NCBI RefSeq assembly: GCF_900009135.1
Contig: NZ_LT797704.1
Location: forward strand, 73,897 to 116,744
Source of the DNA: Planktothrix sp. PCC 11201
Lineage (GTDB): Bacteria; Cyanobacteriota; Cyanobacteriia; Cyanobacteriales; Microcoleaceae
Length of the DNA: 42,848 nt
Reading direction: 5' to 3'
The position numbers and the translations under genes were made by a program. Each line of letters begins with the position of its first letter. Within the stretch, counting starts at the first letter, position 1. Shown piece after piece: positions 2,401 through 42,778 of the stretch. The notes under the pieces are model-generated. The model was given only the letters and a program-made list of their open reading frames with translations. It had not been told where the DNA came from and did no database searches.

Positions 2401-3813
2401 TTAAATTTCCCCAATTCTTTTTTGAACATTAATTTTCTTCCATAATTCCTGTTTAATTCGGTTGAGAATTGAAGTTTCATCTAAGGTTTCTAAAATATGT
2501 TGAACCACCGCTTTTGGCCCTTCTTCTCCCCAGGATGCACCATTGGCTAAATAAGCTTTTGTCACCTGTCCAATAGCATAACCAGAAACCCCGGCGATCG
2601 CAGCTTGGGGAATAGCAACAGATAGATAGGGAATTAATGATAATCCCCCGGTTGCTGGAGCGGTTAATCCTAATAGACTTTTTAAAGAACTTAAACCAAA
2701 ATTTGCCACTAATTCACTAGCAGTAATTCCTCCCATACTTAAGGCAATTTTTTGTAATAATTCCACCGCCCCCTGTTGAGTCATGGAAATTCCATATAAT
2801 TTAGATAGGGTTAATATTAACGCCACATCGATCACCGCCCCGCTTAATAAATCAATCATCATCATGGGATTTAAGGCGATCGCAATTGATTTAGTCATCA
2901 CCCCATTCCAAATTATTCGGTTAGCACTAGATCCTCGAATTTCCATTTTTCGCCGGACTAATTTTTCATTCACATCCCCGGCATATAACATGGTATTTAA
3001 GGCGACTAATGATTTCCCTTCCTGATCCAAAATCTCTAAAATTTTTAACTTTAATTCCTCAATTTGAGGTTCTCCTCGGGTAATTTCGGCACTTAAAGTT
3101 CCATCGGGGCGACGAATAGCTTTAGCGACTAAAGGAGAAGCCGCCGCCATCACAATTTCATCGGGAGATAACAATTCTTTAACTCTTTCATCTCTAATTT
3201 TTTCATAAATTGCCTGTCGATCCGCTTCGGGATATTGATCAATTTTATTAAAGACTAATAACATTGGTTTTCCCGCTTCTCGTAATTGCGAAAGGGCATC
3301 ATATTCAACTTGGGTAATATCCCCGGCGATGACAAATAATAATAAATCCACTTGTTGCGCCACCTGACGAGCAATTTGTTCCCTGGTTTCCCCATCTACT
3401 TCGTCAATTCCTGGGGTATCAATCAGTTCAATTTGAGAAATTTTATAGGAAACCGTAGGAATATTAGATGTCTGGTTATCGGTCATTTCCCATGGCTGAA
3501 TTTGAGTAGTTTGGGTGACCCCATGAATTGGGCCAGTGATAAATACTTCTTGACCTAATAACGCATTTAATACCGAAGATTTTCCCCGTCCTACCATTCC
3601 AAATACGGCAATTTGTACACAGGTACGGTCTAATTTATCCATCATTCTTTGCAACCCCCCAATATCGGGTTCTAAACCTTCTCTTTCTGTGGGAGTTAAG
3701 TCAAGATGGTCTACAATCTCCCGTAGGGCGTCTTGGGCATGACGTAAATTTAATTCCGCTTGTAGGTCGGTGAAACTCAGTAGAGTTGTATTAAGTTCGT
3801 CATCTAAAGTCAT
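2401..3813 (-). CDS. Membrane-associated GTPase (Era-like G domain plus DUF697-type tail)
   Basis: This 470-residue protein has a short helical N-terminus and then a TrmE-Era-Septin-type G domain. G1 is GMVGRGKSS (residues 72-80), G3 is DTPG (132-135) and G4 is NKID (189-192). The C-terminal third (about 300-430) is hydrophobic and Gly/Ala-rich, as in the DUF697 proteins found with GTPases in cyanobacteria, and probably inserts in or lies on a membrane. The family may act in membrane or stress processes, but no precise role is known to me. It lies upstream of minCDE on the same strand, separated by a repeat and a hairpin, so shared transcription is uncertain. Confidence 0.85.
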   Translation of the reverse strand: MTLDDELNTTLLSFTDLQAELNLRHAQDALREIVDHLDLTPTEREGLEPDIGGLQRMMDKLDRTCVQIAVFGMVGRGKSSVLNALLGQEVFITGPIHGVTQTTQIQPWEMTDNQTSNIPTVSYKISQIELIDTPGIDEVDGETREQIARQVAQQVDLLLFVIAGDITQVEYDALSQLREAGKPMLLVFNKIDQYPEADRQAIYEKIRDERVKELLSPDEIVMAAASPLVAKAIRRPDGTLSAEITRGEPQIEELKLKILEILDQEGKSLVALNTMLYAGDVNEKLVRRKMEIRGSSANRIIWNGVMTKSIAIALNPMMMIDLLSGAVIDVALILTLSKLYGISMTQQGAVELLQKIALSMGGITASELVANFGLSSLKSLLGLTAPATGGLSLIPYLSVAIPQAAIAGVSGYAIGQVTKAYLANGASWGEEGPKAVVQHILETLDETSILNRIKQELWKKINVQKRIGEI

Positions 3814-13357: not shown

Positions 13358-13599
13358 TGATAATATAAAGATGGGTATTTAGGGGATATATATTCTTAGT
13401 CTAAGCTACTCTAGGGCAAACAGAGTTTTGAACACCAGCACGACAACTACTCAGGGATATATCAACGCTTCCCACCATGATCGAAAAATTGGGTTTAAAA
13501 TCCCTAACTTCGTAGTTAGGCTTTATCAAGAAAATGGGTTCCACTTCGGCAGGCTCAGTACACGGCTTCTAGGACGGCTTTATATTGGTGGGTTGTCTA
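13358..13599. other. Spacer before the folded element
   Basis: This stretch holds the kinase promoter region at its left edge and then sequence with no supported gene. A short phrase around 13545-13565 (CACTTCGGCAGGCTCAGTAC) resembles a motif that is common in cyanobacterial spacers. A 60-residue frame at 13428-13610 has no recognisable features and I do not believe it. Confidence 0.4.
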
Positions 13600-13975
13600 T
13601 TGGCATCTGATGGTGCTACTATTTCCCATAACACCGAAAGGTAAAAAACCTGTCTAAAAACCTAGTCGCCTAACGGCAAAACGCGCTCACCTTGACAGTT
13701 GGAATCTATAGGGTTCTACTGCAAAGTTCTAGCTCTCCCCAGCAGTGGGTAAAAGATTCATGGGAGCTAAACAACCAGTTTTTTGAAACAAATTTGTTTC
13801 AAGTTAAAAAAGAACTCGCAGCAGTTCAACAGGCTCACTGCGAATAGGGTAGGGCATACCCGAATTTACGCTTGGGGAGAATCCCACCTCTGGTCAGAGC
13901 ACCCAAAGGTACTTTAGATTAAGTGGTTTCGCTGAACCAAGAATCCCCACGCCTTTAGGCAAAGGGAGTGTCAAA
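13600..13975 (+). ncRNA. Candidate structured RNA element with an IS605-type right end, no protein
   Basis: There is no credible reading frame, but stems follow one another closely: ACC-GAAA-GGT (13633-13642, a GNRA-type tetraloop), GCC-taac-GGC (13668-13677), a bulged stem 13731-13739/13762-13768, and the perfect 20-bp palindrome 13783-13802. Further on are CGCAG/CTGCG (13817-13821/13838-13842), GGGT/ACCC (13847-13861), CTCTG/CAGAG (13888-13899) and TGGTT/AACCA (13924-13939). It ends in a right end nearly identical to that of tnpB near 41.55 kb, and 13852-13940 still resembles the 3' part of that gene. This fits an omega-RNA (HEARO- or TnpB-type) element without its nuclease; a decayed transposon is the alternative. 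Confidence 0.4.
13941..13974 (+). mobile_element. Solo IS200/IS605-type right end
   Basis: GAATCCCCACGCCTTTAGGC followed by AAAGGGAGTGTCAA differs from the right end of the tnpB element at 41548-41581 at one or two positions. It forms the subterminal hairpin typical of IS605 ends. No transposase gene lies beside it. Confidence 0.75.
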
Positions 13976-14028
13976 TTAGAATGTGGAGGCAGTTGCAAAG
14001 AAGCACCAAACCTAAATCTTGAGGTTTA

Positions 14029-14064
14029 GGAATCGTCGCACTTTTAGGGCGGTGAGGGTGTCAA
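14029..14064 (+). mobile_element. Second solo IS605-like right end
   Basis: GGAATCGTCGCACTTTTAGG followed by GCGGTGAGGGTGTCAA has the same layout as the end at 13941-13974: GAATC, a GC-rich stem around TTTAGG, then GTGTCAA. A hairpin, CCTAAATCTTGAGGTTTAGG (14010-14029), precedes it. The sequence is diverged, so it may come from a different element. Confidence 0.5.
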
Positions 14065-14104
14065 TAAGGCAACTTTGAAAGATCGTACCGAATAAGGCGA
14101 ATTC

Positions 14105-16246
14105 ATGACAATGCCACAGTTTGACAAAACCCATGTCTCTCCATCGGAACCCAACGAGGAAGTTTCGAGTCCCACCCTATCGGAAAATGCTTTAGAAACC
14201 CCGGTAGAGGAAAACACCAAGACCCAGAAAAAAATCCCGTTGAAACTTCCGGCTTGGTTTTGGGGATGGCCGTTTCTGTGGCTGATTGTCTTACTGGGGT
14301 TTGGGACGATGGGGACAGGGGCGTTGTTGTGGTTATTGACGATGCCACCCGTCCCAAACTGTGAGGATATTTCGTCCCTATCTCCCGATAGCGAACATTT
14401 GTATTGTGCCGATATGGCTACAAAGTCGGGCAAAATTGAACCCTTACGTCAAGCCTTTGCCCTGGTTGCTAGTTGGCCGGCTGACCATCCCCTCCAGGGA
14501 CTCGCCCAGCAAAAAATGAAAGAGTGGTCACAGGCTTTAATTACCATTGCAGAGCAGAAGATTGAAACGGGAAATTTAGAAGATGCCTTAGCCATTGTTA
14601 ATATTGTCCCGAAAAATACCCCCGCCTATGAGTCGGTTGCCGTTGCCATTGAGGGATGGAAAAATAATTGGGATCAAGGGCAAAAAATTTATGACAAAGC
14701 CCAAGCAGCAATGAAGGCATTAGATTGGAGTAAAGCCTTTGAATATGCCCAGGCTTTATCTAAGTTAAATAATAGTCATTGGAGTGAAAAACGGTTTGAT
14801 GAAATCATGGATCGTTTGAGCTTAGAGCGTCAAGGGAATCAACGACTGAATGAAGCCCGGGAGTTGGCTAAAGACAACACCCCGGAAAAGTTAGCGGAAG
14901 CGATCGCCTTAGCTAATCAAATTGATAAAAAACTTTATATTCAAGCGGGTGCAATTAAAGAAATTAAAAATTGGAGTCGATCTTTACTCGATTTAGCCGC
15001 TAAACAATTAAAGGAAAAAAATATAGACGGTCTGACAAAAATTGCGGGTTTAGTTCCTAACTATTCTCCTTTATATTCAGAAGCACAAAATTTAATTTTA
15101 ATGGCCCAAGTGAAAGCCCTCAGTTGGAATCAAGCTAGTAGCAAACCCATTTGGCAACAAATGGCGATTCTGTGGGAAGGACAAGCAACCCTCGATCAAA
15201 TGGGCAATCAGTCCCTGCCCTATGAGGAAGCCAAAGTCACCTCCAAAGAAGTCTCAGGACAAATCCAGGATCTGATCAATTTACAGTTGGCGACGGCGGT
15301 GGCAACTATTCAGCATCCTTTTGCCTTACAACTGGCGATTGATCAAGCTCAGATGATTACCCCCCAACAGCCTCGGCGGGTTCATGCTCAAACCTTAGTC
15401 GCCCATTGGCGTAAGGAAATTCAGCGTCTTGAGGATCGACCCTATCTGGCTTTAGCACAACGGTTGGCCCAGACGGAAACCCCGCAAGGATATTCCCTGG
15501 CGATACAACAAGCCCTTCAGGTGGCTTTGGGGAGTCCCCTGCGGGTGGAGGCTCAAACCTTAATTGCTGAATGGAACAAACGGATTGAGATTATTGAGGA
15601 TCAACCTGTCCTGAATGAAGCTTTAGCCTTAGCCAAGGCAGGTAACCTCAGTGCGGCGATTGACAAAGCCTCCAAAATTGGCAGCCGTCGAGCGTTGTAT
15701 AAGCAGGCACAGGATAAAGTTTCCGGTTGGGTGGCTACAGTTCAAACCGCCGAAGATCGGCCAATTTTGGATCGAGCTTATAATTTAGCGAAAAAGGGAA
15801 ATCTGAGTGGGGCGATCGCCGAAGCTGCTCAAATTCGCTATGGTCGGGCATTATATTCTGAAGCTCAAGGGGCGGTGGCAGGTTGGGCAGCCGAAAGAGA
15901 TGCGGCGCTTGCGGTACAACAAGCCCCCACAGAACCCGCTCGTCCCGCGTATCAAGATTCCTACTCGAATGATTCGGGTTATTCTAACAATTCCGAACCC
16001 AGCTATTCCGAACCCAGCTATTCAAATGATTCGGGCTATTCTAACAATTCCGAAGCACCTAGCTATTCCGAACCTAGTTATTCCGAACCACCTAGTTATT
16101 CACAACCTAGCTATTCCGAACCCGCAGCACCTCCGGCTCAGGAGATTGCACCCGCCCCGGCTGAACCCGCACCAGAACCCGCCCCGGCTGAACCTGCCCC
16201 TAGTGGTGGAAATAATGCACCCGATCCTAATTTATTCTTGGAGTAG
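14105..16246 (+). CDS. Membrane-anchored helical-repeat protein with Tyr/Ser- and Pro/Ala-rich tail
   Basis: This 713-residue protein has an acidic cytoplasmic N-terminus (1-50) and one membrane helix (about 55-80, FLWLIVLLGFG to LLWLLTMPP). A long run of TPR-like helical repeats follows (about 90-600), built from units such as A(L/I)(D/E)xAxxIxxxxALYxxAQ. The tail from about 615 is a low-complexity block of SYSEPSYSNDSGY units and then APAEPAP units. Similar cyanobacterial proteins are often auto-annotated as chromosome segregation ATPases, but I see no ATPase motif. It could organise an extracytoplasmic assembly. Function unknown; the gene itself is sure. Confidence 0.88.
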   Translation: MTMPQFDKTHVSPSEPNEEVSSPTLSENALETPVEENTKTQKKIPLKLPAWFWGWPFLWLIVLLGFGTMGTGALLWLLTMPPVPNCEDISSLSPDSEHLYCADMATKSGKIEPLRQAFALVASWPADHPLQGLAQQKMKEWSQALITIAEQKIETGNLEDALAIVNIVPKNTPAYESVAVAIEGWKNNWDQGQKIYDKAQAAMKALDWSKAFEYAQALSKLNNSHWSEKRFDEIMDRLSLERQGNQRLNEARELAKDNTPEKLAEAIALANQIDKKLYIQAGAIKEIKNWSRSLLDLAAKQLKEKNIDGLTKIAGLVPNYSPLYSEAQNLILMAQVKALSWNQASSKPIWQQMAILWEGQATLDQMGNQSLPYEEAKVTSKEVSGQIQDLINLQLATAVATIQHPFALQLAIDQAQMITPQQPRRVHAQTLVAHWRKEIQRLEDRPYLALAQRLAQTETPQGYSLAIQQALQVALGSPLRVEAQTLIAEWNKRIEIIEDQPVLNEALALAKAGNLSAAIDKASKIGSRRALYKQAQDKVSGWVATVQTAEDRPILDRAYNLAKKGNLSGAIAEAAQIRYGRALYSEAQGAVAGWAAERDAALAVQQAPTEPARPAYQDSYSNDSGYSNNSEPSYSEPSYSNDSGYSNNSEAPSYSEPSYSEPPSYSQPSYSEPAAPPAQEIAPAPAEPAPEPAPAEPAPSGGNNAPDPNLFLE

Positions 16247-40987: not shown

Positions 40988-41551
40988 ATGGGATTTAGGC
41001 TGAATATTATGGATGGGTTGGAATTATTGCAGCGAAAGGCAAAAGGAGAATGGAGTTTTAAAGGGGTGGATTTAAGAGGGGCAGATTTGCAAACTTGTGA
41101 TCTAAGTAAGTTAGTCTTTATCGGGGCGGACTTGAGTGGGTCAAATCTCAGTTACGCAAATTTAAGTCGAGCTTCGTTGCGCGGGGCCAACTTAATGGGG
41201 GCGAATTTGAGTTATGCCATTTTGAAACAAACCAGTTTATATAGCACCCAAATGATGGGGGCAAATCTTTCCCATATTAATCTCAATGGAGCGAATTTAA
41301 CTCAAGCTAATTTAAGTTATACTAATCTTTATCAAGCAGATTTAAGCGATGCAACTTTATATGAATGTAATTTAGAAAATGCCTGGTTAGTGGGGGCAGA
41401 TTTACGCGATACCGATTTACACAAAGCCAATTTTAAAGCCGCTAATTTAACCGATGCTAACCTAACCGATGCCATCGGGTTTAATCATGAAGATGCCATG
41501 ATTTACAATACGATTATGCCCAATGGTCAAGTCCTATTATCAATGTTTTGA
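40988..41551 (+). CDS. Pentapeptide-repeat protein
   Basis: This 187-residue protein (180 from M8 at 41009, MDGLELLQRK, which I prefer) has a short helical N-terminus and then about 25 A(D/N)LXX units from about residue 27 to 165. They fold into a right-handed quadrilateral beta-helix. Such proteins are abundant in cyanobacteria and mostly of unknown function. The TGA stop is made by the first bases of the tnpB right end, so insertion may have trimmed the natural end. Confidence 0.9.
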   Translation: MGFRLNIMDGLELLQRKAKGEWSFKGVDLRGADLQTCDLSKLVFIGADLSGSNLSYANLSRASLRGANLMGANLSYAILKQTSLYSTQMMGANLSHINLNGANLTQANLSYTNLYQADLSDATLYECNLENAWLVGADLRDTDLHKANFKAANLTDANLTDAIGFNHEDAMIYNTIMPNGQVLLSMF

Positions 41552-41581
41552 CACTCCCTGTGCCTAAAGGCGTGGGGATTC
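41548..41581 (-). mobile_element. Right end of the IS605-type tnpB element
   Basis: On the minus strand: GAATCCCCACGCCTTTAGGC then ACAGGGAGTGTCAA, with a subterminal hairpin. It lies within the last codons of tnpB and beyond. In TnpB systems the guide part of the reRNA is copied from the bases just past this end, here the 3' end of the pentapeptide gene. Confidence 0.8.
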
Positions 41582-42778
41582 TTTGTTCATAGAGCCAACT
41601 TGCTCGAACAGGATTTCTCCAGCCCGAGTAGAGGTCGATTCTCCCAAAGCGTTGCTCATGTCTAGCATGAAAGTTCCCGTATGCCCTACGGTACTCAATC
41701 CTCGACTAAGGATATTTCTAGCTGCATTTTCATCTCTATCCATGACACAACCGCACCTACAAACATGGGTTCTAGTGGATAGCGTTTTCTTAACAATTTC
41801 ACCGCAACTAGAGCAATATGAGCTGGTATATTGCGGATTTACCGCTACCGTGACTCTTTCAAATACTTTCCCAAAATATTCAATCCAGACCCGAAACTGA
41901 TACCAAGATGCGTCATTAATAGACTTAGCTAAACAATGATTTTTTACCAGATTTTTAATTCTCAAATCTTCGTAGGCTATCAAGTCGTTAGACTGAACTA
42001 CGCACCGTGCTAATTTCACAGCATGGTCTTTACGTTGCCTACTTATTTTGAGGTGGCGTTTCCCTAAAATCTGTCTAGCTTTGCCTCGATTTTTTGAACC
42101 TTTGACTTTTCGGGAAATCCGACGTTGTGAACGTTTAAGAACCTTTTGACCTTGACGGAGAAATTTAGGATTCTCAACCGTGACTCCATTTGAATCGGTG
42201 TAGTATTCCTTCAAGCCCACATCTAGTCCAATAGTATTTCCAGAAGGTTTTGTATTTTCTTTCCGGTCAACATCGACACAGAATTGAACATACACGCCGT
42301 CTGCACGTTTTACTAATCTCACCCGTTTTATTTGGCTAATTTGGTAAAAGTGTAAGTCGCGTGTGCCTTTTAACTTGAGTTTACCAATATTTTTTTTATC
42401 GGTAAACTTTATGGATTTTCTATCATCTGCAAGTTTCCAACCCGTTGATTTATACTCAACAGAACGGCAGTTTTTCTGGAATTGGGGATATCCTTTTTTA
42501 CCCGGAATTGACTTTTTGCAGTTCTCGTAAAAACGGGAAATAGCAGACCAGGCTCGTTCAGCACAAGATTGTCTGGCTTGAGAATTGAGTTCATTAGCAA
42601 ACGGAAAATTCTTCGCAAGCACGGCGCAATATTTATTTAAATCATACTTATCTATTTTTTGATTATCCATCCAATAGCGTAAACAGCTATTGCGGACAAA
42701 TTGTGCTGTACGAATTGCTTCCTTTACTGCTTCAATCTGACTGGCTTTTCCGTAAGTTTTGAACTCAAATACTAACAT
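41564..42778 (-). CDS. tnpB: RNA-guided endonuclease TnpB (IS200/IS605 group)
   Basis: This 404-residue protein has an N-terminal helical/WED-like region, then a RuvC-type nuclease with D186 (GLDVGLKEY), E270 (IAYEDLRIKN) and an Asp of the MDRDENAA block (347 or 349). A zinc-finger insert has C322, C325, C340 and C342. All catalytic positions are present, so it may be active. TnpB uses an RNA from its own 3' end to cut DNA next to a short motif, favouring element persistence. No TnpA gene is seen within the window. The left end lies at or beyond the window edge. Confidence 0.95.
   Translation of the reverse strand: MLVFEFKTYGKASQIEAVKEAIRTAQFVRNSCLRYWMDNQKIDKYDLNKYCAVLAKNFPFANELNSQARQSCAERAWSAISRFYENCKKSIPGKKGYPQFQKNCRSVEYKSTGWKLADDRKSIKFTDKKNIGKLKLKGTRDLHFYQISQIKRVRLVKRADGVYVQFCVDVDRKENTKPSGNTIGLDVGLKEYYTDSNGVTVENPKFLRQGQKVLKRSQRRISRKVKGSKNRGKARQILGKRHLKISRQRKDHAVKLARCVVQSNDLIAYEDLRIKNLVKNHCLAKSINDASWYQFRVWIEYFGKVFERVTVAVNPQYTSSYCSSCGEIVKKTLSTRTHVCRCGCVMDRDENAARNILSRGLSTVGHTGTFMLDMSNALGESTSTRAGEILFEQVGSMNKESPRL

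Follow-up and report, generated by a model that had tools for sequence, protein, structure and literature searches.

Short, ORF-free mobile elements are familiar in the IS200/IS605 family, whose PATEs and MITEs carry left-end (LE) and right-end (RE) hairpins and insert without target duplication. Guide-RNA loci that lack a neighbouring nuclease gene reportedly exist as well, namely the stand-alone HEARO/IscB omega-RNAs of Weinberg in 2009 and Altae-Tran in 2021, and Meers is said to have described in 2023 a TnpB-based retention that works by cutting of the empty site.

In the parts of the literature examined, the guide RNA of TnpB is encoded at the 3′ end of its nuclease gene or immediately past it. 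PMC10278001 presents retention by cutting of the empty site as part of TnpB biology, PMC11061315 identifies RAGATH-18 (RF03064) as the guide RNA of the IS607 TnpB, and PMC4227781 describes the IStron as an IS605 plus a large RNA. Our literature search, which covered titles and abstract openings and had most subscription papers and bioRxiv outside its scope, returned no description of an element such as the one analysed here.

This element lies in a 42,848-nucleotide stretch of DNA from Planktothrix sp. PCC 11201 (the window). It is a non-autonomous IS200/IS605-type transposon, and its sole product is predicted to be one structured RNA of ~340 nt. We consider it likely that this ORF-less element is moved by TnpA and makes its own TnpB guide RNA, which would probably act in trans to cut empty sites, so that the element is retained or spreads.

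Limits, parts and mobility of the element

In two relatives (G001 and G002), the bases to the left of 13527 run straight into 13975, and because this empty site is kept in both, the limits of the element are set at 13527-13974. The original prediction had placed it at 13600-13975, a span that omits the left end as well as the -35 region. The parts of the element and its surroundings are as follows.

13527-13974 (448 bp), + strand: whole mobile element, from the left end to the right end ...GTGTCAA; empty site in G001 and G002, multi-copy in the genus
13523-13526, + strand: TTAT target and presumed TAM in the left flank; pattern found at the junction, and TTAT at the phage empty site
13527-13577, + strand: IS605-type left end with hairpin; left-end type as in the tnpB element at 42 kb
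13593-13622, + strand: promoter-like -35 TTGTCT (13593-13598) and -10 TACTAT (13617-13622), spacing 18; the -10-like box is shared among copies
13628-13782, + strand: 5′ domain with P1 hairpin, loop pseudoknot, P2 and large H-type pseudoknot; from covariation and model R2
13702-13707/13754-13759 and 13716-13722/13742-13748, crossed by 13727-13732/13767-13771 and 13738-13741/13761-13764, + strand: the H-type pseudoknot; from covariation
13783-13802, no strand: perfect 20-bp palindrome; a variable hairpin, absent from several copies
13846-13974, + strand: 3′ domain, TnpB guide-RNA (reRNA) scaffold, including a hairpin at 13847-13861 and the RE hairpin; from pair counts and model R1
13975-13994, + strand: right flank directly after RE, read as the putative guide by the rule of known TnpB systems
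13482-14064, + strand: older mini IS605-type element of ~135 bp (13482-13526 plus 13975-14064), host of the insertion; insert-free in G001 and G002
41548-42778, - strand: intact tnpB (41564-42778) with its own reRNA/RE (41548-41665); Pfam OrfB_IS605 and Cas12f1-like_TNB; candidate partner nuclease

A pattern search finds TTAT at the junction in 35 of 38 Planktothrix rows (aligned copies including that of the window), and the copies in the Planktothrix alignment end in GTGTCAA. At the empty site of G001 and G002, the target now reads TTGT. Right ends related to that of the ~135-bp mini element are also present elsewhere in the genome.

Several features read earlier from the letters of this DNA are borne out. 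No ORF of at least 80 aa overlaps 13527-13974, in line with the claim that the region holds no credible frame; the perfect 20-bp palindrome is present; and the IS605 right end is, as proposed, nearly identical to that of the intact tnpB element (95% over 43 bases). Two left/right-end types are found around one core, each matching a tnpB element of the genome. With its LE and RE hairpins, its lack of an ORF and its insertion after a short motif without duplication, the locus has the characters of a non-autonomous IS200/IS605 element. It is mobile and ORF-free, has inserted after TTAT without duplication, and has ends like those of tnpB elements in the same genome. Six Y1 TnpA matches occur in this genome, and we infer that the element is moved by TnpA supplied from another element.

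Copies and distribution

The element recurs at three further places in the genome of the window and has many copies in Planktothrix, where all 10 genus genomes searched contain some match, a few with only parts or ends. Alignment A1 comprises 37 of 40 fetched stretches (L089, L101 and L105 left out) plus the window copy. Across the order, a DNA search of 291 genomes gave matches in 178, many of which are merely tnpB 3′ ends or right ends; a profile search of 102 loci fetched from these matches yielded 82 full-length homologues outside Planktothrix, a set that excludes L139, L246 and truncated matches. Model R2, a covariance model of the 5′ domain, was applied to 386 genomes of the phylum with strict filtering and eight candidates scored per genome; it matches 57, three of which lie outside the order. 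A pattern scan of named genomes found at least 80 loci; among the matches listed, 77 have cyanobacterial titles and three are in metagenome bins otherwise labelled. TnpB is encoded in all 40 element-bearing genomes tested (of 57 found), which is weak evidence because TnpB is common in cyanobacteria.

So wide a spread, together with strong conservation, would suit a domesticated guide RNA with a host role, for example regulation by a nuclease-dead TnpB. Yet the flanks, and hence the guides, differ among nearly all copies read, and the copies are still mobile, so that we regard a host role as very improbable.

Conservation of the RNA structure

The original prediction had described a strongly folded element. 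Folding energy of the single window copy does not bear this out (z = -1.74; 6 of 100 shuffles fold equally well, which is not significant), and the structural claim therefore rests on covariation among homologues. The alignment of homologous loci that had been proposed as a check did reveal strong covariation. In the main alignment (93 sequences, 72% mean identity), the named helices are paired in 86-99% of cells, versus 2-69% after sliding by one to three columns. The exception is P2, which pairs poorly as aligned, both here (72%) and in a 34-sequence alignment of the 5′ domain (69%).

Compensatory events, defined as changes on the same tree branch and scored as pair-keeping versus not pair-keeping, are most numerous in helices g (41:0), R3 (26:5), RE1 (26:3) and RE2 (20:3), followed by c (16:0), a (14:1), h (12:1), helix R1 (9:1), R2b (9:0), d (7:2), e (7:1) and helix R2 (5:0). 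For P2 the count is an unfavourable 10:14. No compensatory event at all is seen for pairs b (GGTTC/GAACC) and t (TTGACA/TGTCAA), whose pairing is not claimed. Both are nearly invariant within 13692-13974, TTGACA/TGTCAA spanning from the core to the right end, and they may be long-range or tertiary contacts.

Shuffling gives a similar picture. In the 3′ domain (36 sequences) 93.3% of cells are paired versus 78.8% in shuffled alignments, and in the 5′ domain (34 sequences, P1 omitted) 91.1% versus 78.8%, with 0 of 500 shuffles reaching the observed value in either case. Strict testing pair by pair against a tree-based null picks out few, 11 at E<=0.2, of which eight lie inside named helices; of the other three, 200/221 would extend hairpin g, 6/23 reflects the misaligned P1 and 182/282 fits no helix. 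P1 and its loop pseudoknot also covary in the 101 of 120 sequences that could be parsed (19 unparsed), with P1 counted at the best register found, which favours pairing, and the loop pseudoknot counted without a register search. Pseudoknot pairs were tallied by alignment column, an earlier regex parse having covered just 33 of the 120 sequences.

Helices d and e cross helices a and c, and the 5′ domain is therefore a pseudoknot. Judged from the aligned homologues, the RNA is conserved by compensatory changes in nearly every helix, including those of this pseudoknotted domain, for which there is no match in Rfam. Model R2 gives the 5′ domain of the window copy 123.9 bits. Read from its sequence, this copy has two P1 pairs and one helix d pair broken; with these departures from the consensus in P1 and helix d, it may be less active than others.

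A promoter-like signal precedes the RNA. A -10-like box stands at the corresponding place in 100 of 106 parsed copies (14 of 120 sequences unparsed), 9-18 nt 5′ of P1; it is present in 67 of the 71 copies from outside Planktothrix and in 33 of the 35 from within it. By the same criterion, a control stretch in the 71 non-Planktothrix copies contains the box in just two; the control covers these copies only, and the Planktothrix copies are closely alike. A -35-like hexamer (at least four of six positions, at the right spacing) accompanies the box in 29 non-Planktothrix and 22 Planktothrix copies. The RNA is thus probably transcribed from a promoter of the element itself.

These results bear on whether the locus could be an ordinary MITE or PATE, conserved through mobility or recent amplification, with the apparent RNA being merely DNA hairpins for TnpA. 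The IS605-type ends, the mobility and the modest energy z-score of the window copy would all fit such an origin. What makes it quite unlikely in our view is that compensatory changes occur in internal helices, far from the ends used by TnpA, at the mean identity given above, and that the promoter-like box is fixed.

The 3′ domain resembles TnpB guide-RNA scaffolds

The resemblance of the tail of the element to the 3′ end of tnpB, noticed at the outset, extends over its last ~129 nt, which are homologous; a decayed full-length tnpB frame was sought and not found, tnpB-like sequence being confined to this stretch. Model R1, a covariance model built only from 36 ORF-less copies and run over 50 loci, gives the 3′ domain of the window copy 117.7 bits. 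It also matches 10 of 20 tnpB loci from the window's own genome at E<1e-5, ten that include two sets of identical copies, with three further loci matched more weakly; the scaffold fold is thus common to the element and the tnpB 3′ end. The window TnpB locus at 42 kb receives 63.1 bits (E 6.6e-14), and its protein contains putative D, E, D motifs. A decayed tnpB in L156 is matched too. By this model, none of 29 loci of another cyanobacterial TnpB lineage carries the scaffold at its own end, the single match among them (L181) falling at a neighbouring place off the TnpB end.

The comparison identifies the last ~129 nt of the element, which make up the 3′ third of its RNA, by homology as a TnpB guide-RNA (reRNA) scaffold that ends at the right end. 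The proposal that the RNA is reRNA-like is supported by this homologous scaffold, the RE end, TTAT on the left and ends shared with the TnpB element at 42 kb. The locus differs from RNAs encoded at a tnpB 3′ end and processed from its mRNA, since it has no ORF of at least 80 aa and has its own promoter-like box. Scores of tnpB ends with E<1e-5 range from 33 to 97 bits, below the 118-148 bits of the solo copies of the window, of two other places in its genome and of phages, and cross-binding is therefore uncertain. The 5′ domain was not detected beside tnpB: across all 48 tnpB loci searched with its covariance model the best E is 0.97, and both controls (a nested copy and the window element) were found.

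More distant genomes contain variants of this arrangement. Solo scaffolds of G351 and G540 score 26-83 bits with model R1. In G351 a short form (L432, L435 and L438, compared by eye) has P1-P2 followed by the tnpB-like 3′ end, with the pseudoknot absent, and is perhaps an evolutionary intermediate. L432 still reads TVGHTGT in its tnpB-like 3′ end. In G312, a distant cyanobacterium, 17 places match model R2 at E<=0.1, and model R1 has no match at these loci. The last ~112 nt of the G312 solo copies recur elsewhere in that genome at 83-92% identity, and 11 of 16 such further loci have a 410-453-aa ORF ending inside this stretch; the four of these 11 ORFs that were checked all encode TnpB. Thirteen G312 solo copies (L450-L462) are nearly identical, 98-100% over the 3′ 152 nt, which suggests recent activity.

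Insertion sites and the intron question

A large pseudoknotted RNA with IS605 ends could also be an IStron-like self-splicing intron or another ribozyme. In Rfam there is no group I or group II match, a very divergent group I intron being a remote possibility. When insertion sites are joined across the element, 5 of 89 are spanned by an open frame, versus 48 of 89 at the midpoint of the left flank and 58 of 89 at that of the right flank; in 48 of the 89 the left end was unrecognised and taken to lie 60 nt upstream of the RNA. Restricting the count to the 41 sites with a recognised left end gives 2, versus 25 and 24 at the controls. Similarly, at least one frame stays open over the first 240 nt of the right flank in 29 of 89 cases, versus 60 of 89 for a control stretch further out. 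Insertions thus mostly, though not always, avoid genes, and the element is therefore not a splicing IStron. With counts so far below the controls we reject the intron reading and hold a ribozyme of any such kind to be extremely improbable.

One copy (L139, which has tnpB inside) might seem to favour an intron. At L139/L246 (G284:C1, near 2236000-2237800), a tnpB IS apparently interrupts a loop of one solo RNA. The RNA was absent around the gene at all 29 related tnpB loci; the tnpB of L139 therefore seems to be a nested IS, and L139 was rejected as an autonomous form with tnpB inside.

Insertion polymorphism in phages

Five records of Nodularia phages contain a nearly full-length copy, one of the five being the RefSeq version of another. 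An Aphanizomenon phage shows a short, partial match. In phage kac65v151 the profile match covers 4-328 of 328 (E 4.5e-86), and the solo RNA is intact in L480 at 3003-3308 (MK605242.1) and in L484 at 1501-1808 (MK605246.1). The element-bearing Nodularia phages also encode TnpB, 57-59% identical to that of the window over its full length. Model R1 finds the scaffold at the TnpB 3′ end of kac65v151 (97.4 bits) and kac68v162 (88.2 bits). The kac65v151 TnpB adjoins a Y1 TnpA; no TnpA is annotated in the 4.4 kb surrounding the TnpB of kac68v162.

Phages kac68v161 and 2AV2 have identical flanks with the element absent, the empty site reading TTAT directly followed by TATAAGG. The comparison delimits a 437-bp insert with 864 flanking bases identical; Nodularia phages therefore show a precise insertion polymorphism among isolates. 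The element-free phages carry TnpB too. Having the same site with and without the element makes trans-guided retention or homing directly testable in these phages.

A model for retention and spread

If the element makes a guide that acts in trans, the RNA would be transcribed from its own promoter, running past GTGTCAA into the flank, and would be loaded into TnpB encoded by a different element. Such an RNP would recognise and cut the empty site, TTAT joined to the flank, whether this site arose by excision or lies on a sister DNA molecule, and repair would then copy the element back. Excision and insertion would be carried out by TnpA of another element. The pseudoknotted 5′ domain may add stability to the RNA or help it compete for TnpB. 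Guiding in trans to the empty site is suggested by the established retention biology of TnpB.

The same competition could serve another end. As a decoy or regulator, the RNA would bind TnpB (or TnpA) to titrate or inhibit it, for example in defence of the host or of a different element; its tnpB-like scaffold would be a competitor for TnpB, and the 5′ domain, being absent from the tnpB loci searched, could alter RNP activity. However, the RE end and the TTAT junction are kept, as a guide needs, though TnpA needs both too, and a decoy seems unlikely to us. We return, then, to a guide that directs TnpB to empty sites. In its broadest form, which we put forward only tentatively, the element would be a selfish one consisting of a guide RNA alone: independently transcribed, it would take both TnpA and TnpB from others, home into empty alleles guided by its flank, also between co-infecting phages, and use its new 5′ pseudoknot domain to win TnpB from the reRNA that belongs to TnpB itself. 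If true, so widespread an RNA-only element would mean that a guide can turn into an independent parasite of a nuclease, and its 5′ domain may offer new guide-RNA parts.

Comparison with known systems

No Rfam family matches at threshold, and below threshold nothing is convincing besides RAGATH-18. The original prediction had also thought of HEARO, for which there is no support: the RF02033 covariance model has no match in 13360-14110 even at E<10. The element is like the stand-alone HEARO/IscB omega-RNAs in being a guide-RNA locus without an adjacent nuclease gene, but the RNA is unrelated, and its guide position is 3′, of the TnpB type.

With RAGATH-18 it shares the outer stem, the GGAG and TGAA motifs and the second stem. 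Of 20 diverse loci, 11 have a sub-threshold match at the homologous position, with E from 0.12 to 5, and the best reaches 27.7 bits versus a gathering cut-off of 44.9 bits. The two differ in their ends, which are of the IS605 type in the element and of the IS607 type in RAGATH-18.

IS605 ends combined with a large RNA recall the IStron, from which the element departs in that no group I intron is detected and its insertions mostly avoid genes. Like PATEs and MITEs of the IS200/IS605 family, it is short and ORF-free, with LE and RE hairpins and no target duplication; unlike them, it carries a conserved structured RNA gene. To the TnpB reRNA/omega-RNA of IS200/IS605 it is linked by the homologous 3′ scaffold, the RE end, a flank in the guide position and TTAT on the left. 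It differs from this RNA in lying outside any tnpB mRNA, with its own promoter-like box, a pseudoknotted 5′ domain of ~150 nt and an element that is free of a nuclease gene.
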